A stretch of 64,000 nt of DNA from Bordetella genomosp. 4 (GTDB lineage: Bacteria > Pseudomonadota > Gammaproteobacteria > Burkholderiales > Burkholderiaceae_B). Below the pieces are notes generated by a model. It searched no databases. It saw nothing but the letters and a program-made list of their open reading frames with translations, and was not told where the DNA came from. The stretch is taken from assembly GCF_002261185.1 (NCBI RefSeq), contig NZ_NEVQ01000023.1, positions 1-64,000 of the forward strand. The letters are read 5' to 3'. Positions 1 through 45,037 of this stretch are shown one piece after another; within the stretch, counting starts at the first letter, position 1, and the number at the start of each line of letters is the position of its first letter. Made by a program: the position numbers and the translations under genes.

Positions 1-109
1 TTTGATCGCGCTTGAGCTGCTTACGCACCAATGGCTTACCGCGTTTGTCGGCACCGTGGATCTGAAAGACACTCTTTGCCAAATCGATCGCAACTGTCGT
101 AATCTCCAT
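1..109 (-). CDS. IS110-family transposase, N-terminal fragment (cut by window edge)
   Basis: On the minus strand an ATG at 109-107 opens a frame that runs off the window; 36 residues are visible, beginning MEITTVAIDLAK and followed by SVFQIHG. The xxAIDLAKxxFQ pattern is the first acidic motif of the DEDD (RuvC-like) domain of IS110-family transposases. An AAGGAG ribosome site lies about 8 nt upstream. The remaining catalytic residues and the C-terminal serine domain are outside the window, so it is not known whether the element is intact. The outer end of the IS should lie somewhere upstream of the start, probably within about 110-270, but I could not fix it. Confidence 0.85.
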   Translation of the reverse strand, partial: MEITTVAIDLAKSVFQIHGADKRGKPLVRKQLKRDQ

Positions 110-275
110 AGCGGACGCTCCTTCCGTTCAAGTGGTTGTACGCACTCCCACTTTGGCACATTGATGCCGTTTCAGGTAGGGGCGTCCATCCCATTGACAT
201 CCACTCGCTCGGCCACGAGGCGCGCCAACACGGTCACTGCCCCGCCTCGACTCGCAGAATCTCTGATTCCCTCGC

Positions 276-433
276 CGCTGGCACGACTGGTCTTCGTAGG
301 CTTCGTAGCACGGGCGTTTGCAAGGAGGAAGATCTTGCAGGGCTGCTATTCATGGCCGCCTACGGGCGCGGCCATGAATAGCGTTCGTGATTGGCATGCG
401 AAGGCTTTGGCATCGGGGATGAACAGAAGATCT
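276..433 (+). repeat. Hairpin repeat, copy 1
   Basis: A roughly 158-bp unit that recurs in inverted orientation at 506-660. It starts with CGCTGGCACG, has a conserved AAGATCTT (329-336), then a perfect 15-bp stem (345-359 with 368-382, 8-nt loop). The stem begins GCTATTC and ends GAATAGC, and GGCATGCG and AGAAGATCT follow. The outer seven stem bases and the flanks match copy 2, but the inner stem (ATGGCCGC here) is different in copy 2 and still paired. No convincing gene was found across it. Confidence 0.7.
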
Positions 434-505
434 CTCGAGCTACGATTTCGTTATACCCAGAGATGCGCTACGCATCATCGCCGCATGCATCAACTCTAGC
501 CAAGC

Positions 506-660
506 AGATCTTCCAAACTGGCACCACGCCACCCCGCCGCATGCCCGGACCGATCGCTATTCGCGCGTGTGCAGGGCACGCGCGAATAGCAGCACCGTAA
601 GATCTTTCTCTTTGCCAACAGGGCTACAAAAAAACGCCAAGCAAGACAGCCGTGCCAGCG
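506..660 (-). repeat. Hairpin repeat, copy 2 (inverted)
   Basis: Read on the minus strand this matches copy 1 in order: CGCTGGCACG (660-651), AAAGATCTT, GCTGCTATTC, then a perfect 14-bp stem (556-569 with 577-590, 7-nt loop), GAATAGCG, GGCATGCG and GGAAGATCT. The inner stem is GCGCGTG instead of ATGGCCGC. Chance translation of the conserved flanks gives similar peptides in both copies (RKIL..CYS), which I take as a by-product of the repeat rather than a gene. Confidence 0.7.
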
Positions 661-679
661 ATGTGATGAGCTTGAATTA

Positions 680-859
680 CTGCGAGTCGAGCCGAGGCAA
701 TCGGGCCGTGCGGGCGCCTCAAAGCCGAGTGGAGCGGACGTCGAAGGTAGGCCCGAACGGGCCGGACGAGACGAGCGAACACGATGTCCGGCGCCCGCGC
801 GCCGGACCGGCTTTGTGAAGCCCGCACGGCCCGATTGCCTCGGCTCGACGTCCAATAAG
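680..859 (+). repeat. Long-stem structured element 1 (D/E subtype)
   Basis: A 30-bp perfect inverted repeat (686-715 with 820-849) is bounded by CTGCGAGT at the 5' end and ACGTCCAATAAG at the 3' end. These match the ends of the other four elements in this window. Inside are GCGCCTC just after the left arm and GTGAAGC just before the right arm, both shared with the element at 43368. Between them are a 7-bp helix (AAAGCCG/CGGCTTT) and a perfect 9-bp hairpin (786-794 with 799-807). It lies 14 bp beyond the dld stop codon and is oriented against dld. It lacks the GCGNAGC apical motif seen in the other four. Confidence 0.75.
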
Positions 860-873
860 CACTCCAACCTCAC

Positions 874-2646
874 TTACAACCGCTCCTCATGAAAACCTCC
901 AGACGCCTCCGGCTCCCGATAATTCACATACTTGGACAGAAATCCAATACCGGGATTAAAGCAGTTGCAAGGATCCAGCTTCTTATAAAAAGCCTGCAAC
1001 TGCGGCTTGGCCTGATACAGATGGCCTACATTGTGCTCGGCGGGATATTCGGCGCCTCTGGCATCCAGCAGCTCCAGCATCTGGTGCTCGATCGCCATGC
1101 AATCGTGCCCTTTGCGGATGATGTAGTCCTGATGAAAGACATGGCACAGGAAATGACCGTAGTACAGCTTCATCTCGATCGCGTCATCGAACTTGGCCGG
1201 TAGACGCTCGAACCAATCGCGGTCGTCCCGTCGCAATGCAATGTCCAACGCGACAATGTCTTCTACCGTCGAACCATGCACGGCCCGATAGCGGACCGCC
1301 GCACTGGCGGCAGCAAAGCGATGCAGGAAAGCCTTTCTGCCTTCCTCCTCGGTGCACTCGAAATAGCCGCCTCTACCTTGCGCAAAATACTGGGATAAAA
1401 AAGCCTGTGCCTCGGCAACACCTTCGGCCGGGATCTTGAGCATCAAGTGATGCTCATACTCATTGCGATAAGCCAGCAGACGATCCGGTAGATGATTGGG
1501 TAGCAATCGGCTGAAAAATTGCATCAGACGGTCGCTGAGATTGGCAGGAAAAATGCCAAGCCGCTCAAAGAACGCATCACACCGATTCTTCAGATTGAAG
1601 AATGCCGGCAATCGATCCGTGCCGAAATGCTCGATGATCCAAAAGAGGTCTTTGCCATAACGCGCGGCCACATCAAAAGCATCGCGGTGCACGTATTCGC
1701 CAGCAATAGGCAGATGCTCGAATGTACCCAACGCATGACGGCGGATGTCGGTCAATACATTGGTGTCGTTCGTACCGATGTAGAACACCTTGGCGCCACG
1801 CGCCGCGGGAAAGGTATCGAGCCTGACGGCGAAGACCATGACCTTGCCCGCAGAGCCCGAGGCCTCGCGCAAACGCAGCGGGTCGGCGTTGTAGCGAGCA
1901 GGTGTGGGCGCATCGATGTCGCGGACATGCTTGGCGTAGCCATGATCCGAGGCAGCGCCAGCGTCACGTATCACGTCCTGATCCGAAAACCCGCGATTCT
2001 CCAGCTTGGCCAGGATCGCTTCCGGATCGGCCCCAAGCTCGATACCCAGATGATTGACTAGATGCAGTTTTCCGTCTGCGTCGACAGCCCCGTACAGCGC
2101 CATCTCAGTATAGGCCGGCCCGCGATTGACGAGGGAACCACCCGAGTTGTTGCACACGCCGCCAATGACCGAAGCGCCGATGCACGAGGAACCGATGACC
2201 GAGTGCGGCTCACGCCCCAACGGCTTGAGCAAGCGCTCTAATTGATCGAGCGTCGAGCCCGGCAGACACACCACCTGACGGCCGTCCTCGATCACGTGCA
2301 CTTTCTTGATGCGGCTGGTGCTGATGATGACGATATCGCGATCGTAGTCCTCGCCATGCGGCGTAGAGCCGCCCGTCAGGCCGGTATTCGAGGCCTGGGC
2401 GATGATGGCCACACCTGCCGCGACGCATTGCTGCAGGACTTTCCATTGTTCGACCAGCGAGCCTGGGCGCACGACCGCAAGGGCCTTGCCGCGGCCGAAA
2501 CGAAATCCGGTGCAATAGCGGCGCATCGCCCGATCATCAGTAAGCACCTGCGAGGCGCCCACAATAGTCGATAGGGACGACAGCAATCGTTGGCGCGCCT
2601 CAGGCGTTCGCGCCGCGGTGACCGCCGGCAAGATGACATCAGACAT
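874..2646 (-). CDS. dld: Quinone-dependent D-lactate dehydrogenase
   Basis: A 590-residue flavoprotein that oxidises D-lactate to pyruvate and passes electrons to the quinone pool at the inner membrane face. It is close in length to E. coli Dld (571 residues). The N-terminal FAD-binding fold shows ASNTGLTGGSTP at about residues 85-96 and VCNNSGGS near 163; the C-terminal half has the membrane-binding region typical of Dld and ends with CNCFNPGIGF. The ATG start (MSDVILP) has GAGAGG upstream. It is probably monocistronic, with the two-component genes 163 bp upstream on the same strand. A structured repeat sits directly past its stop codon. Confidence 0.93.
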   Translation of the reverse strand: MSDVILPAVTAARTPEARQRLLSSLSTIVGASQVLTDDRAMRRYCTGFRFGRGKALAVVRPGSLVEQWKVLQQCVAAGVAIIAQASNTGLTGGSTPHGEDYDRDIVIISTSRIKKVHVIEDGRQVVCLPGSTLDQLERLLKPLGREPHSVIGSSCIGASVIGGVCNNSGGSLVNRGPAYTEMALYGAVDADGKLHLVNHLGIELGADPEAILAKLENRGFSDQDVIRDAGAASDHGYAKHVRDIDAPTPARYNADPLRLREASGSAGKVMVFAVRLDTFPAARGAKVFYIGTNDTNVLTDIRRHALGTFEHLPIAGEYVHRDAFDVAARYGKDLFWIIEHFGTDRLPAFFNLKNRCDAFFERLGIFPANLSDRLMQFFSRLLPNHLPDRLLAYRNEYEHHLMLKIPAEGVAEAQAFLSQYFAQGRGGYFECTEEEGRKAFLHRFAAASAAVRYRAVHGSTVEDIVALDIALRRDDRDWFERLPAKFDDAIEMKLYYGHFLCHVFHQDYIIRKGHDCMAIEHQMLELLDARGAEYPAEHNVGHLYQAKPQLQAFYKKLDPCNCFNPGIGFLSKYVNYREPEASGGFHEERL

Positions 2647-27318: not shown

Positions 27319-27444
27319 GGGCCTTTTCCGAGGAGCACAAAGGCGGTTAGACAACGCGCCGAGCGACAAATTGCCCTGTCAGGCGACCGTCACGCGCGGC
27401 AAATTACAATAATGGCACATTATGCCCGTGGAAACCTGATCATC

Positions 27445-28152
27445 ATGCCCGCCTCATCCTCGGCCCTCACCCGTATCGCCCCCAGTATCCTGTCCGCAGA
27501 CTTCGCCCGCCTGGGCGAGGAAGTCCGCAACGTCGTTGCCGCTGGCGCCGACTGGATCCATTTCGACGTGATGGACAACCATTACGTGCCCAACCTGACC
27601 ATCGGCCCCATGGTGTGCGCCGCCATCCGGCCGCACGTCCAGGTGCCGATCGACGTGCACCTGATGGTCGAACCCGTGGACGAACTGATCCCTCAGTTCG
27701 CCAAGGCCGGCGCCAACATCATCACCTTTCACCCCGAAGCCTCGCGCCACGTGCACCGGACCCTGTCGTTGATCCGCGACCACGGCTGTCAGGCCGGCCT
27801 GGTATTCAACCCGGCCAGCTCGCTCGACGCCATGGATCACGTGATGGACTTGCTGGACGTCGTCCTGCTGATGTCGGTCAACCCTGGTTTTGGGGGACAG
27901 AGCTTCATCCCCTCCACGCTGGACAAACTGCGCGACGCCCGCCAGCGCATCGACCGCTGGGTCCAGGCCGGCGGCCAGCCCATCCTGCTGGAGGTGGACG
28001 GCGGCGTCAAAGTCGACAACATCGCGCAAATCCGCGCCGCTGGCGCGGACACCTTTGTCGCCGGCTCCGCCATTTTCGGCAAACCCGATTACACCAAAGT
28101 CATCCAGGACCTGCGCGATGAAATCGCCAAAGCCGGAACACTGACGGTTTAA
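27445..28152 (+). CDS. rpe: Ribulose-phosphate 3-epimerase
   Basis: A 235-residue TIM-barrel epimerase that interconverts ribulose-5-phosphate and xylulose-5-phosphate. Motifs: [29 protein letters not shown] with the catalytic aspartate, [21 protein letters not shown], and [10 protein letters not shown] near the phosphate site. The upstream gap holds an AT-rich stretch (TTACAATAATG) suitable for a promoter. gph follows after 415 bp that contain a structured element. Confidence 0.96.
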
Positions 28153-28290: not shown

Positions 28291-28513
28291 GTGAGTTTGT
28301 CCCAGCCGGTGAGCGGTGGTGGGTGGGCCTGTCGGAGGCTGCCGAGTCCGTGTTCCATCGGCGGGGGCAGTCCGGGGGCCATGTCTGAGCGAAGCGAGTT
28401 TGGCCCCCGGCCCGCCGATGGAACACGGACGAAGGCCGAGTCCCCGTTGAGGGGACGAGTCAGCCGACCAGGCCCGCCCGCCACCGCTCACCGGCTGGGA
28501 CAAACGCCTAAAG
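28291..28513 (+). repeat. Long-stem structured element 2 (A/B subtype)
   Basis: The outer stem is 37 bp (28295-28331 with 28469-28505), with 35 Watson-Crick pairs and two G-U wobbles on the plus strand. An inner 20-bp perfect stem (28346-28365 with 28411-28430) is followed on its left strand by an unpaired GGCAGT (28366-28371). Then comes a 10-bp stem (28372-28381 with 28401-28410) capped by a loop with TGTCTGA, GCGAAGC (28389-28395) and GAGTT. A side hairpin lies at 28440-28456. Ends: GTGAGT at 28291 and ACGCCTAAAGA ending at 28513. It lies between co-directional rpe and gph. Confidence 0.85.
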
Positions 28514-28567: not shown

Positions 28568-29263
28568 ATGACCACCTTCCAAGCCGTCCTCCTAGACCTA
28601 GATGGCACCCTGCTAGACTCCATCCCCGATCTAGCCCACGCCGCCAACGCCATGCGCATCGAGCTGGGCATGCCCGCCTTGCACGAAGACATCGTGGCGA
28701 CCTTCGTAGGTAAAGGCGTAGACAACCTGGTACGCCGCGCCCTGGCCGGATCCTTGCACGCAGCCGACCCGGCACCCGCCGAGTTCGAGCGTGCCCGCGA
28801 ATCGTTCTACCGGCACTATCACCTGGTCAACGGCGACAAGGCCACCATTTTCAACGGCGTCATCGAGGGCCTGAAAGCCATGCGCGAGCAGGGCCTCAAG
28901 CTGGCCGTCGTCACCAACAAGCCCACCGAATTCACCATCCCGTTGTTGCAACGCACCGGCCTGGCGGGCTTCTTCCAGGAAATCGTCTGCGGCGACACCT
29001 GCGAGCGCCGCAAACCCGACCCCGACCAGATGTTCTACGCCTGCGAACGCCTGGGCGTCACCCCTGACCAAGCGCTCGCCATCGGCGACTCGGTCAACGA
29101 CGCCCAAGCCGGCCGCGCCGCCGGCATCCAGGTGCTGGCAGTACCGTATGGCTACAACGAAGGCCAGGACGTGCACGGATTGGATGTCGATGGTATAGTT
29201 GCCAGCATTGCTGAAGCGGCCGCGTGGATCGCCCGCAAAAACGCCGAGCAGCAACAGACTTGA
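28568..29263 (+). CDS. gph: Phosphoglycolate phosphatase
   Basis: A 231-residue HAD hydrolase that dephosphorylates 2-phosphoglycolate. HAD motif I is DLDGTLLDS, motif II is VVTNKP, the motif III lysine is in ERRKPDPDQ and motif IV is AIGDSVNDA. The rpe-gph-trpE order is common in betaproteobacteria and supports gph over other HAD phosphatases. The ATG at 28568 starts MTTFQAVLLDLDG. Confidence 0.92.
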   Translation: MTTFQAVLLDLDGTLLDSIPDLAHAANAMRIELGMPALHEDIVATFVGKGVDNLVRRALAGSLHAADPAPAEFERARESFYRHYHLVNGDKATIFNGVIEGLKAMREQGLKLAVVTNKPTEFTIPLLQRTGLAGFFQEIVCGDTCERRKPDPDQMFYACERLGVTPDQALAIGDSVNDAQAGRAAGIQVLAVPYGYNEGQDVHGLDVDGIVASIAEAAAWIARKNAEQQQT

Positions 29264-31727: not shown

Positions 31728-32759
31728 ATGACCATCACCTGCACCGAAGCACTGACCCGATGCATCGAACATCGTGAAATTTTCCACGACGAAATGCTGC
31801 ACCTGATGCGCATGTTGATGCGTGGCGACATGTCGCCGCAAATCGCCAGCGCACTCATCATGGGCCTGCGCGTCAAAAAAGAAACCGTAGGGGAAATCAC
31901 CGCAGCGGCGCAGGTCATGCGCGAATTCGCCACGCCGGTCGTCACCCCTAACCCCGAAGACCTGCTGGACATGTGCGGCACGGGCGGTGACGGCAGCCAC
32001 ACGTTCAACATCTCGACCACAGCCATGTTTGTCGCCGCTGCCGCTGGCGTGCCCATCGCCAAGCACGGCGGCCGCAGTGCTTCATCGTCATCGGGCAGCG
32101 CCGACGTGCTGGAGGCCTTGGGCGCCAATCTGGTCCTCAGCCCCGAACAGGTCGCCGAATGCCTGCAGGCGACCGGCATCGGTTTCATGTTCGCTCCCGC
32201 ACACCATAGCGCCATGAAAAACGTCGCCCCCATCCGCAAAGAGCTGGGCGTACGCACGATTTTCAACATCCTGGGACCGCTGACCAACCCCGCCGGCGCC
32301 GCCAACCAGCTGATGGGTGTGTTCCACCCCGATCTGGTCGGCATCCAGGTACGCGTCTTGCAGCGTCTGGGCTCACGGCATGTCCTGATCGTGCACGGCA
32401 GAGACGGCATGGACGAGGCCTCACTCGGCGGCGCCACCCTGGTCGGCGAACTCAAAGACGGGGAAGTCCGCGAATACGAGATCCATCCAGAAGACTATGG
32501 GCTGGCAATGGTGTCTAATCGAGGAATCAAAGTGACCAACCGCGAGGAGTCTCGCGAGCTTGTCATTCAGGCCCTAGACAATGTCGAAGGCGTTGCCCGC
32601 GACATCGTCGCCCTGAACGCAGGGTTGGCGATCTACGCCGGCAACAAAGCCGATACCATCGGCCAGGCACTATCGATGGCCTTTGAAACAATTGCGAACG
32701 GCTCGGCCCGCGCCAAGCTGGAAGAATTCTGCGCCTATACCCGGAAATTTCAAAAATGA
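31728..32759 (+). CDS. trpD: Anthranilate phosphoribosyltransferase
   Basis: A 343-residue enzyme that joins anthranilate to PRPP. Motifs: [18 protein letters not shown] (PRPP-binding glycine loop), [18 protein letters not shown] and HGRDGMDE. The stop codon overlaps the trpC start (ATGA at 32756-32759). Confidence 0.96.
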
Positions 32760-33544
32760 ACGACATTCTCGCGAAGATCCTGGCCGTCAAGGCTGAGGAG
32801 ATCGCCACGGCACGCCAGTTGCGCAGCGAAGCGGAGCTATTGCGCGAAGCGCAGGCTCGCCAGGACGTACGCGGCTTTGCCCAAGCCATCGAAGACAAGA
32901 TCGCCCAGGGCCATGCCGGCGTCATTGCCGAAGTGAAAAAGGCCTCGCCCTCCAAAGGCGTCTTGCGCGAAAACTTCGACCCCGCCGCGATCGCCGCCAC
33001 CTATGCGGTGCACGGTGCCGCCTGCCTGTCCGTACTGACAGATGTGCAATTTTTCCAGGGTTCGCACGACAACCTGCGCCGCGCCCGCGCGGCCTGCCCG
33101 CTGCCCGTGCTGCGCAAGGATTTCGTCATTGATCCCTATCAGGTCATCTCGGCCCGCGCCATGGGCGCCGACTGCGTCCTGCTGATCGTAGCCGCCCTGG
33201 CACCGAACCAGCTACGCGATCTGGAAACGTTGGCGATGGAGCTCGGCATGGACGTCCTGGTCGAGGTGCACGACGCCAAAGAACTCGACATCGCCCTCAG
33301 CCTTAAAACTACCTTGCTGGGCATCAACAATCGCAACCTGCGCACCTTCGAAACGAGCCTGCAAAACACCCTGGATCTGCTGCCGCACATCCCGGCCGGC
33401 AAGCGCGTCGTCACCGAGAGCGGCATCCTGACGCCCGACGACGTCAAACTCATGCGCAGCCACAAAGTTGACGCCTTCCTCGTAGGCGAAGCCTTCATGC
33501 GCGCCGAAGACCCTGGCGCCGAATTGGCGCGCCTGATGCGCTAA
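32756..33544 (+). CDS. trpC: Indole-3-glycerol phosphate synthase
   Basis: A 262-residue TIM-barrel enzyme that closes the indole ring. Motifs: [20 protein letters not shown] near the N-terminal catalytic lysine, [24 protein letters not shown] and [11 protein letters not shown]. It is a stand-alone TrpC without a fused TrpF domain. It is last in trpEGDC; trpF, trpB and trpA are not in the window. Confidence 0.96.
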
Positions 33545-33979: not shown

Positions 33980-34213
33980 CTGTGAGTCCCTGCCGGGTGC
34001 GTGGGCGCCGTGCTGGCCCGTAGAGTTCGCCGAACCAGCCTTGTCAGGCGGGGGGCAGTCGGCTGGGCATGTTTGAACGGAGCGTAGCGGAGTGAGTTTG
34101 CCCAGCCGCCCCGCCTGGCGAGGCTGGTGAAGGGAAGTCTGGCCGCGCAGGCGGCCAGACCGAGCGATAGGGCCAGCACGGCGCCCACGCACCCGGCAGG
34201 GACGCCTAATGAG
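33980..34213 (+). repeat. Long-stem structured element 3 (A/B subtype)
   Basis: The outer stem is a perfect 34 bp (33986-34019 with 34170-34203). An inner 19-bp stem (34035-34053 with 34109-34127) pairs fully, with two G-U wobbles on the plus strand. Then come an unpaired GGCAGT (34054-34059), a perfect 10-bp stem (34060-34069 with 34099-34108), and a loop with TGTTTGA, GCGTAGC (34082-34088) and GAGTGAGTT. A side hairpin lies at 34137-34160. Ends are CTGTGAGT and ACGCCTAATGAG. Inner flank motifs GTAGAG and GCGATAGG recur in the minus-strand element at 43072. Confidence 0.85.
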
Positions 34214-34282: not shown

Positions 34283-35038
34283 CTATTTCCCCCCGGAAAC
34301 CTCGATAAACGACCCCGTCGTATACCCCGCCTCATCGGAAAAAAACCACATCACCGCCCCCGCAACCTCCTCAACGGTCCCGCCCCGCTGCAATGGAATC
34401 GCACTAGCCAATCGATCCACCCGCCCAGGCTCTCCGCCACTGGCGTGCATCTCGGTATAAATCGTTCCCGGCCGAACCGCATTCACGCGAATCTGATCAG
34501 CAGCCACCTCTTTAGACAGCCCGATCGTCAACGTATCGAGCGCCCCTTTTGACGCCGCGTAATCGATATATTCCCCGGGCGAACCCAAGCGAGACGCGAC
34601 CGAAGACACATTCACGATAGCGCCGCCCCGTCCACCATGACGCGGGCTCATGCGCCGCACCGCCTCGCGGCAGCACACCACCGCGCCGACAACATTCGTC
34701 ATCAGAATACGCGTCACACGGGCAGCATCCAGGTCCTCGAGCCGGCATTGCGTCTCGAGTATGCCGGCATTGTTGACCAGGGCGTCCACCCTGCCCAACT
34801 CCCGGTCCACGGTTTGAAACAGCCGCACGACCTGCGCCTCGTCGGCAACATCCGCACCGACGGCAATGGCTCGCCCGCCTTCGGTCAGGATCTCTCGCAC
34901 CACCGCATCGGCATCCTCGCGACGATGACGATAATTCACGCAAACGGCATACCCCCGGCGGGCAGCCAGACGCGCCACCGCGGCGCCGATTCCGCGGCCG
35001 CCGCCGGTGACCAACATGATTTTTTCAGATTGAGACAC
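34283..35038 (-). CDS. SDR-family oxidoreductase
   Basis: A 251-residue short-chain dehydrogenase/reductase. The cofactor loop is LVTGGGRGIGAAVA, NNAG is in DALVNNAGIL, the catalytic Ser is in VNVSSVASRLG and the YxxxK motif is YAASK. The substrate is unknown. The GTG at 35038 was chosen, with GAGGGAG six bases upstream; the only upstream in-frame alternative is a TTG overlapping that site. It lies 31 bp downstream of aqpZ on the same strand. Confidence 0.88.
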   Translation of the reverse strand: MSQSEKIMLVTGGGRGIGAAVARLAARRGYAVCVNYRHRREDADAVVREILTEGGRAIAVGADVADEAQVVRLFQTVDRELGRVDALVNNAGILETQCRLEDLDAARVTRILMTNVVGAVVCCREAVRRMSPRHGGRGGAIVNVSSVASRLGSPGEYIDYAASKGALDTLTIGLSKEVAADQIRVNAVRPGTIYTEMHASGGEPGRVDRLASAIPLQRGGTVEEVAGAVMWFFSDEAGYTTGSFIEVSGGK

Positions 35039-40899: not shown

Positions 40900-43044
<2,145 letters not shown>

Positions 43045-43071
43045 TCGTTTGTTTGATTGCATCGGGCGTCT

Positions 43072-43223
43072 CTATTTAGACGTCCGTGCCGCGAGCCAGG
43101 AGTGTCATGCGGGGCCTATCGCACGGACTCGCCCCATGAGCAGGGGGCTCGGTCCGCTGCGCGGACTGAATCCGTGCTCTACGGCCCCGCATGACACTCC
43201 TGGCTCGCGACACGGACTCACAG
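43072..43223 (-). repeat. Long-stem structured element 4 (minus orientation)
   Basis: The outer arms are 35 nt (43183-43217 with 43082-43116), complementary except for one position that is a G-U wobble on the minus strand and an A-C mismatch on the plus strand. On the minus strand the ends are CTGTGAGT (43223-43216) and ACGTCTAAATAG (43083-43072). Inside are GTAGAG, a GCACGGA/TCCGTGC stem, a hairpin with GCGCAGC (plus-strand 43156-43162), and GCGATAGG before the 3' arm. GTAGAG and GCGATAGG are shared with element 3. Confidence 0.8.
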
Positions 43224-43367
43224 TAGAGGCTGGCCGCCGATGCCGGGAATGCGAACGTCAGGGCTTTAAACGATCGATGTCGTTGCGGGACGGGTTAACG
43301 TCCACAGTGCCAACACCTGCCGATACTGCTGACAAAAAATGGATAACGATGCAGCAGGCTTGAGATG

Positions 43368-43533
43368 CTGTGAGTCGTGGCGGGGCGGTAAGCGTGTGGG
43401 GGCGCCTCGTGGTCGAGCGAGGGAAACCGAAGGAGCGCAGCGACGAGGTTGACGAAGCGGTGTCGGACGCGAAGGCGTCCGACCGACCACGCGAAGCCCC
43501 CACACGCTTACCGCCCCGCCACGACGCCAAAAG
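43368..43533 (+). repeat. Long-stem structured element 5 (D/E subtype)
   Basis: A perfect 30-bp outer stem (43374-43403 with 43496-43525) has ends CTGTGAGT and ACGCCAAAAG. Inside are GCGCCTC, a stem CGTGGTCG/CGACCACG (43408-43415 with 43484-43491), GCGCAGC (43435-43441) and a perfect 9-bp hairpin (43462-43470 with 43475-43483). GCGAAGC follows before the right arm. GCGCCTC and G(C/T)GAAGC match element 1, where the intervening stem has different but paired bases. The 144 bp between elements 4 and 5, and the 91 bp after, show no gene. Confidence 0.8.
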
Positions 43534-43624
43534 AACTCCAGCCTCTCGACAGCCACATCCAGCGCTCAACAAAGACGACCCACGAAACACCGTCAATTCC
43601 GCACGACCCGCACCCAAATCGGGT

Positions 43625-45037
43625 CTACAGCAACTTCCCAGGATTCAAAATCCCCGCCGGATCAAAAATCCGCTTGATATCCCTCATCAACCGCAGCTCC
43701 AGCGGATCCTTGCTATGCAGGAAATGATCCCGCTTGAGCTGACCGATACCATGTTCGGCACTGATGCTGCCCCCGTACCGGTTCACTTCGTCCAGCACGA
43801 TATCCGTCACGGCATCGCCCTGTTGAGCCGCCCATTCGCGCGGCGCACCTGCCGGACGCGAGAGGTTGTAGTGCAGATTGCCGTCTCCGAAATGCCCGAA
43901 GATAAACGGCCGAATATCCGGATAAGCCGCACGCACACGCTGCTCGGCAGACTGCATGAATGCCGGAATCTGTTCGATAGGCAATGAAATATCGTGTTTG
44001 AGATGCGGCCCGTCGGCACGCTGGGCCTCGGAGATTTCCTCGCGCAATTTCCAGAGCGCCTGCAACTGCGCCAACGACGTCGAGACAGCAGCATCCAGGC
44101 ACAACTCGCGCTCCAACGCGGCACCCATCACGTTTTCCAACAGTGCATTCAGCGCATCCTCATCGGCCGTGTCAGCCAGCTCCATCAACACATAGCCGGG
44201 ATAACGCTGCGCAAAAGGCTCTTGCACGCCTTGTGCATGCGTCAACACCAAGTCCACGCAATCGCCCGTGAAAAACTCGTAGGCCTGCAGACGCGGACCA
44301 CATTGCTCGTTCACCAACTCGGCCAATTGCAAGGCCTGCTCAGGAGACTGCACCGCCGCCAACACCACGGAACGCACACTATTGCGCGGAAACAAACGTA
44401 ATGCCACAGCGGTGATCACGCCGAGCGTGCCCTCGGCGCCGATCAACAATTGCTTGAGGTCATAACCCGTATTGTCTTTACGCAGCGTACGCAGGCCATG
44501 AAAAATCTCCCCTGTCGGCAACACCGCCTCAATGCCCAGCACCAGCTCGCGCGTCATGCCATAGCGCACGACGTTGACGCCACCCGCGTTGGTCGAAACA
44601 TTGCCGCCGATCTGGCAAGAGTCTTCCGCAGCCAAACTGAGAGGCAGCATGCGATTCGCATCCTCGGCAGCGCGGCGCAGATTACCCAGAATGCATCCCG
44701 CCTCGGCCACCATGGTATTGGCAATCGTATCGATCGACCGCACGGCATTCATGCGATCCAGCGAGAGCACCACATTGGCTGGCGCCTGATCCGGCGTGGC
44801 GCCTCCGCACAACCCGGTATTACCACCGCGCGGCACAACGGGTACACCGGCTTCTTGGCACAACGCGAGGCACCGCGCGACCTCTTCAGTGGTACGTGGA
44901 CGTACGACAGCTTGGGCCTGCCCGTTATAAAGGCCACGCCAGTCTGACAACCACGGCGCAATGTCATCGGCTGCAGTCAATACCGTATCGGGGCCCAGGG
45001 CTTGGACCAGGCGCTGCGCAAAATCGGAAGTAGTCAT
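43625..45037 (-). CDS. FAD-binding oxidase, GlcD / D-2-hydroxyglutarate dehydrogenase-like
   Basis: A 470-residue flavoprotein of the 4-phenol-oxidase (GlcD) family. The FAD-binding PCMH half shows VVPRGGNTGLCGGATPD, CQIGGNVSTNAGG and GYDLKQLLIGAEGTLGV. The C-terminal metal-binding half shows FIFGHFGDGNLHYNLSRP and SAEHGIGQLKRD. It oxidises a D-2-hydroxy acid; specificity is unresolved between glycolate, lactate and 2-hydroxyglutarate. It is 46 bp downstream of a FadR-type regulator gene that may control it. Confidence 0.9.
   Translation of the reverse strand: MTTSDFAQRLVQALGPDTVLTAADDIAPWLSDWRGLYNGQAQAVVRPRTTEEVARCLALCQEAGVPVVPRGGNTGLCGGATPDQAPANVVLSLDRMNAVRSIDTIANTMVAEAGCILGNLRRAAEDANRMLPLSLAAEDSCQIGGNVSTNAGGVNVVRYGMTRELVLGIEAVLPTGEIFHGLRTLRKDNTGYDLKQLLIGAEGTLGVITAVALRLFPRNSVRSVVLAAVQSPEQALQLAELVNEQCGPRLQAYEFFTGDCVDLVLTHAQGVQEPFAQRYPGYVLMELADTADEDALNALLENVMGAALERELCLDAAVSTSLAQLQALWKLREEISEAQRADGPHLKHDISLPIEQIPAFMQSAEQRVRAAYPDIRPFIFGHFGDGNLHYNLSRPAGAPREWAAQQGDAVTDIVLDEVNRYGGSISAEHGIGQLKRDHFLHSKDPLELRLMRDIKRIFDPAGILNPGKLL

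Follow-up and report, generated by a model that had tools for sequence, protein, structure and literature searches.

Dispersed long-hairpin repeats downstream of genes in the Bordetella/Achromobacter group keep their fold on one strand

Element 2, at 28291-28513 on the plus strand of the window (the whole stretch of 64,000 nucleotides analysed here), belongs to a family of dispersed long-hairpin repeats. The family is spread in the Bordetella/Achromobacter group, where its members sit 3' of genes, and two different hairpins frequently form an inverted pair. The form that is maintained is the fold of a single strand, namely the one chosen in an earlier sequence-only reading of this DNA (the "reader's strand"), with a helix mostly of 34 bp, a conserved internal loop, and a branched cap. 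We tentatively propose, at somewhat less than an even chance, that element 2 is a copy of this family that acts within read-through RNA as a one-way 3' boundary.

The sequence-only reading had described five such elements, and all five are present in the window. We scanned for inverted repeats with a 12-base seed, allowing seeds up to 450 apart and requiring arms of 24 bp or more; this gave five long hairpins in the window, and none in each of 30 dinucleotide-preserving shuffles. Element 1 (680-859, plus strand) is a class B1 hairpin with an outer stem at 686-849 (42 bp, 3 mismatches). The outer stem of element 2 spans 28295-28505 (37 bp, with 2 mispairs, both G.T), and the predicted fold agrees with the 37-bp outer stem and the inner stems of 20 and 10 bp that had been proposed for it; the 20-bp inner stem is 28346-28430, and the element also has a side hairpin. 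Element 3 (33980-34213, plus strand) has a type I stem at 33986-34203 (34 bp, 0 mismatches) and a large apical module, element 4 (43072-43223, minus strand) has a type I stem at 43082-43217 (35 bp, 1 mismatch) and a small apical module, and element 5 (43368-43533, plus strand) has a class B2 stem at 43374-43525 (42 bp, 3 mismatches) and a short apical module. A laxer scan adds an inverted repeat at 316-619 (36 bp, 6 mismatches), which was rejected as a sixth element, being the class-B core described below.

Elements 4 and 5 are the left and right halves of an inverted pair around a spacer at 43224-43367; the stem of element 4 lies 38 nt past the stop of the ThiC gene, and that of element 5 lies 99 nt from the stop of a FAD-oxidase gene (43625-45037, minus strand). 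The stem of element 1 ends 24 nt from the stop of a D-lactate dehydrogenase-like gene (874-2646, minus strand), and element 3 has as neighbours an indole-glycerol-phosphate synthase gene (32756-33544, plus strand) and a gene at 34283-35038 (minus strand). Element 2 is an unusual member of the family: its context is tandem, the stem lying 143 nt after the end of a ribulose-phosphate 3-epimerase gene (27412-28152, plus strand) and 62 nt ahead of the start of a HAD-family gene (28568-29263, plus strand), and it is the sole element assigned to its own reference type.

The genome containing the window (5.53 Mb in 23 contigs; G000) holds about 108 copies of the family, a lower bound made up of 51 + 17 + 40. 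Scoring of 150 out of 3,211 first-look candidates with a covariance model (R1), built from 21 small-class copies of this genome, gave at least 51 small-class places that reach 96 bits. A BLAST search with element 3 gave at least 17 large-class places over at least 117 nt, query included (40 of 94 candidates scored), and the large apical module of this element recurs at 16 other places with 79-92% identity. BLAST with element 1 gave at least 40 class-B places of at least 126 nt, query included (40 of 97 candidates scored), 2 of them clipped by contig ends. The stem is intact in 17/17 large-class loci and in 30/30 class-B loci fetched from the 40 places. Across classes, stem lengths range from 25 to 43 bp and are mostly 34 bp, and the internal loop and branched cap are conserved across copies. 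The one decayed copy, L031, has no hairpin: it keeps its 5' flank, a portion of one arm, and a piece resembling the 3' flank. At this scar (L031 1497-1560), the 5' flank with roughly 20 nt of a left arm of type I directly joins sequence like the 3' flank, which looks like a deletion of the hairpin.

The stems had been described as unrelated between copies. Rather, they fall into classes, the four main ones being type I (GTCCCTG..), type II (GCCGGGG..), B1 (GTCGAGCCGAGG..), and B2 (GTCGAGGCGGGG..), and what holds of the description is that, within a class, letters vary with pairing kept. A search with a DNA pattern describing the short apical module of class B proved overly strict: it matched 1/200 genomes and missed this genome's own copies. 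Class-B elements lie within ~800 bp of many contig ends of this genome (C1, C2, C3, C4, C9, C10, C14, C15, and C21), with the 5' side outward, which therefore places assembly breaks in or beyond these units.

The gene context was surveyed without bias over 864 kb (24 long inverted repeats, gaps of at least 60 nt, genes by a simple caller), where elements occupy 9/67 convergent, 7/249 tandem, and 0/104 divergent gaps, which shows a preference for convergent gaps. For 101 elements of this genome, the flanking genes present their stops on both sides in 65 cases and their starts on both sides in 2; for 28 elements of relatives, the corresponding counts are 9 and 1 (9 merged-pair rows were dropped from this recount, and the remaining elements are those with a called gene missing on one side). 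When these 101 and 28 rows are taken together, the reader's strand in tandem gaps is co-directional with the genes in 26 cases and opposite in 15, a weak bias. A strict orientation toward stop codons, considered on the first 23 rows, was reduced to facing pairs plus a preference for 3' gaps.

Pairing is highly regular in this genome. Inverted arrangement with 5' ends inward is found in 28/29 pairs, and the 29th (L019), although scored "++" by the flank scorer, has a first member that is "-" by class alignment and is thus also inverted. All 29 pairs are heterotypic, joining different stem classes as judged by the first 22 nt. Among 10 pair rows from relatives, 2 of which (L120) involve another repeat, 7 are inverted likewise, 2 are "--" (L116, L127), and 1 is "++".

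A class-B core, which is a block repeated between B1 and B2 hairpins and carrying its own inverted repeats, occupies 204-679 of the window; it is matched over at least 400 nt at 80-97% by 13/30 class-B loci, and its left end contains an arm of a truncated partner hairpin. The spacers of class-B pairs (window 204-679; C6 304930-305417; C6 288534-288882) are themselves repeated: they form a palindromic block that has AGATCTTGC motifs as well as inverted repeats of 32-39 bp and in which no gene has yet been recognised. The end of contig C10 (L163) has a second occurrence of window positions 71-679, at 96.7%. The contig-end segment 1-203 is a probable insertion-sequence fragment that cuts a class-B hairpin near its apex; its minus-strand reading frame, which by eye starts MEITTVAIDLAKSVFQIHG, is one we take to be IS110-like, and a Pfam search with 36 aa of it gave no match.

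To identify the maintained strand, we counted outer-stem mispairs on the reader's strand over the first 25-34 stem pairs, a range chosen because one fixed class-B internal-loop position gave an A.C excess. Across 129 classified elements, 3,733 pairs are Watson-Crick, 56 are G.T, 6 are A.C, and 9 are other; before the 9 merged-pair rows were dropped (138 elements), the counts were 4,002, 60, 8, and 27, respectively. The 14/152 inverted repeats that have no class, some of them real members (C16 390845, L141, L185, L304), were left out. Counted as distinct states, G.T exceeds A.C by 38 to 6, and the 56:6 ratio gives p = 3e-11 in a calculation that treats the copies as independent, which they are not. 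At 16 loci of genus g4, which we take to be Achromobacter, the counts are 385 Watson-Crick, 26 G.T, 0 A.C, and 2 other. These loci were found by BLAST (17/20 fetched, three weak g6 loci left out), and 16/17 show the stem at the first scan, with L347 (32 bp, 5 mismatches) appearing at laxer settings. In addition, RNA energy is predicted to be lower for the reader's strand than for its complement in 101/103 copies. The original choice of strand is borne out by the excess of G.T over A.C, and this asymmetry implies that maintenance acts on the reader's single strand, be it RNA or single-stranded DNA. Few stem pairs of this genome are wobbles (44/2,953), and g4 has relatively more (26/413); those of this genome are fewer than we would expect for helices kept by selection alone.

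It had also been proposed that a covariance model be searched against relatives, and such searches found many intergenic copies in the genus, in four other genera, and in Achromobacter. Model R1 matches 10/61 genomes, comprising 9/9 of the genus and 1 other. A second model, with up to 15 candidates per genome scored, matches 15/200 family genomes (9 of the genus, 3 of g60, and 1 each of g7, g11, and g29). An Achromobacter anxifer copy matches 6/151 family genomes, 5 of g4 and, weakly, 1 of g6; in each g4 genome, 3-5 of 5 scored candidates match this query. One site compared is the region 3' of the FAD-oxidase gene; named orthologues of the oxidase include Achromobacter and Bordetella. Here the window has its hairpin pair ahead of thiC, and A. 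anxifer likewise has one ahead of thiC, though its stems differ; the pair found 3' of the oxidase gene in one g4 genome (L304) has yet other stems. A. piechaudii has a gap of ~90 bp with an ordinary hairpin from FAD-oxidase to thiC, and no long hairpin was found in the 1,500 nt downstream of the FAD-oxidase gene in six other genus genomes. Conversely, two copies of relatives are missing from the corresponding gaps of this genome.

Presence and absence of elements between species, seen at three sites, would be expected of non-autonomous mobile DNA, in which a transposase or recombinase binds the hairpin strand, as RAYTs bind REPs, and the 3' location reflects host tolerance. The dispersed copies at up to 96% and about 90% identity, the inverted doublets as in REP dimers (PMC3733652), and an orientation tied weakly to transcription also speak for this explanation. 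However, the transposase search, which covered the Y1_Tnp family (PF01797), found no match in this genome, whereas 5/14 control genomes match; an IS200/605-type origin was rejected on the same ground. In 6 other genomes of the genus, RAYT-like genes adjoin short GGTGTC/GGTGCC-type palindromes rather than long hairpins. Pairing is kept both where sites are shared and in the copies fetched, one decayed copy excepted, and idle insertions would have no need of it. Furthermore, in G002, a genome of one contig, 20 listed places have the reader's strand on plus in 6/11 cases in the first half and 4/9 in the second, so that there is no replication-strand bias if the origin is near coordinate 1. With respect to MITE-type features, the stem ends vary by class, and inspection by eye showed no convincing target duplication or terminal direct repeat, at empty sites too diverged for a clear reading; blastn of element 2 against plasmids gave no match. 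Altogether, we regard mobile DNA as a possible but rather doubtful account.

The way in which stems change bears on how they are maintained. In alignment A1 (21 copies of this genome), the covariation score is 0.555, compared with 0.166 in shuffled and at most 0.083 in slid versions; in alignment A3 (39 copies from 8 genus genomes and G014), it is 0.675, compared with 0.181 and at most 0.124. The copies of both were partly chosen by pairing, which favours covariation, and alignment A2 was left out since it mixed both strands. A3 lies above its shuffles on 5/5 measures and A1 on 4/5, the exception being further pair types (163 of 500). The sequence-only reading had taken pairing kept despite sequence change as the mark of selected structure. 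The covariation on which this relied does exceed slid versions and mostly shuffles, but alone it is no proof of a selected RNA, because whole-element and arm-to-arm copying also carry both sides.

Sites shared between species show 8-15 two-sided and 1-2 one-sided changes per 34 pairs. G000 and G007 have site S1 in common, and its flanks are homologous on either side. Of the two hairpins there, one has 8 two-sided and 2 one-sided changes and the other 9 and 1; each G007 hairpin has its G000 counterpart as the nearest stem (one tied), and the apical module has been exchanged with the outer stem type kept, being large in G000 (L013 1481-1698) and small in G007 (L109 1513-1648). At site S2, shared by G000, G001, and G002 (both flanks match for G002, one for G001), there are 11-15 two-sided and 1-2 one-sided changes, and the stem nearest to the G000 copy is another G000 copy.

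Within classes, 137 variant states are two-sided and 29 one-sided (14 and 2 in class B), and the B1 stem deviates by 0.039 per base compared with 0.123 in the 5' flank. Both observations favour a self-maintaining palindrome without a selected role, kept by arm-to-arm copying at replication (quasi-palindrome correction) or by hairpin-templated re-synthesis. Moreover, 86 of the 137 two-sided states are transversions (51 are transitions), which cannot pass through G.U, and this hints at arm-to-arm copying beside selection. As a complete explanation, a self-maintaining palindrome nevertheless seems unlikely, since it predicts equal G.T and A.C where 56:6 and 26:0 were observed, and it leaves the narrow stem length, the conserved internal loop, and the gene context unexplained. 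We conclude that the stems are likely shaped by single-strand selection together with copying between arms or copies, and they are probably also rewritten arm from arm at the DNA level. The explanation proposed here for element 2 is weakened by the rarity of wobbles in this genome, the excess of transversions over transitions, and the decay of L031, as well as by the G000 origin of the stem nearest to the G000 copy at S2 and the one null measure of A1.

Returning to the one-way 3' boundary, transcription running on from the gene at the 5' side would make the reader's strand as RNA, and the hairpin would form at once in the read-through transcript, where it could serve as a boundary by blocking or by RNase III-type processing. 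In a convergent pair, each hairpin would protect the gene beyond its 3' end against antisense read-through. Terminator-like sites occur at 0/18 stops in convergent gaps with elements, compared with 25/116 in those without (p = 0.024). The boundary model is weakened because the orientation bias in tandem gaps is weak and because terminator-like sites in tandem gaps do not differ (1/7 stops with elements and 36/242 without), with none at the window pair. A further point against the model is that, in a convergent pair, the near gene first reads through the strand that is not maintained. An extended form of the proposal, which we consider doubtful, is that the repeat is recognised by its fold alone (length, loop, and single-strand pairing), so that stems are rewritten freely on both arms, pair mates are kept different against cross-pairing, and the hairpins serve as one-way 3' boundaries of convergent genes.

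The maintained strands of the pair point outward from a common spacer, as they would if the elements were independent small RNAs with their own promoter there and the pair comprised two divergent sRNAs. We consider this quite improbable, given that a scan of 43030-43640, using the sigma-70 consensus only and covering this one pair, found no promoter-like site, and that A-class 5' flanks look poorly conserved upstream of about -28. Ordinary intrinsic terminators, which would likewise be GC-rich hairpins 3' of genes and would suit convergent gaps that have elements and no other terminator-like sites, are very improbable in view of the very long stems, the branched caps, and the lack of a terminator-like site on either strand of 43030-43640.

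Finally, we compared the family with known repeat systems. That it is unrecognised, as first supposed, holds for Rfam, in which 0 families reach their gathering score in the window (the only threshold applied), and a literature search over titles and opening abstracts of open-access papers found no description of it; it is less secure with regard to Bor-1 (117 nt) and Bor-2 (167 nt), which the accessible part of PMC2267715 lists in 2008 for B. bronchiseptica, with 17 copies of Bor-2, and with which our comparison is by description only. On that basis, the long-hairpin family resembles the Bor repeats in being intergenic, structured, and found in Bordetella (PMC1590033, PMC2267715), and part of it may already have been catalogued as Bor-1/Bor-2; in contrast, the Bor repeats covered in the accessible part of PMC1590033 are 26-30 bp. 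ERIC, also compared by description only, is similar in having one long stem-loop of similar size that is dispersed (PMC2267715, in part), whereas the long-hairpin stem diverges in sequence with pairing kept. The RAYT-linked GGTGTC palindromes of Bordetella relatives share the genus; they are short, differ in sequence and size, and are separate from the long-hairpin family. In 6/9 genus genomes, a single Y1_Tnp (RAYT-like) match (L325-L330) lies beside palindromes of the GGTGTC/GGTGCC type, and the RAYT-like frame of G005 contains a stop.

By organisation, the closest known kind is the REP heterodimer. As described in the available portions of PMC3733652 and PMC2817692, REP/BIME heterodimers and REPINs are likewise numerous, dispersed, GC-rich palindromes in tandem and convergent gaps. 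They also come as inverted dimers, which in many cases combine two different stems, and they have structured spacers and a possible RNA role. The differences lie in the tag and stem length: the long-hairpin stem of 25-43 bp, about three times longer than REP stems (5-13 bp in GTAG and 8-9 bp in CGTC REPs according to PMC3733652), bears a branched cap, there is no unpaired GT(A/G)G or CGTC tag (the 5' foot is, by eye, mostly GTGA/GCGA), and, unlike in the REPIN/RAYT system, the PF01797 search found no RAYT gene in this genome. The available text of PMC3733652 mentions untagged REP-like sequences in Bordetellae and sees no obvious explanation for the heterodimer preference of REPs. The long-hairpin family follows this heterodimer rule with far longer stems and with enough letter change to test it, and its strand asymmetry makes it possible to tell selection on a single strand from palindrome repair at the DNA level, a distinction usually left open for bacterial palindromic repeats.
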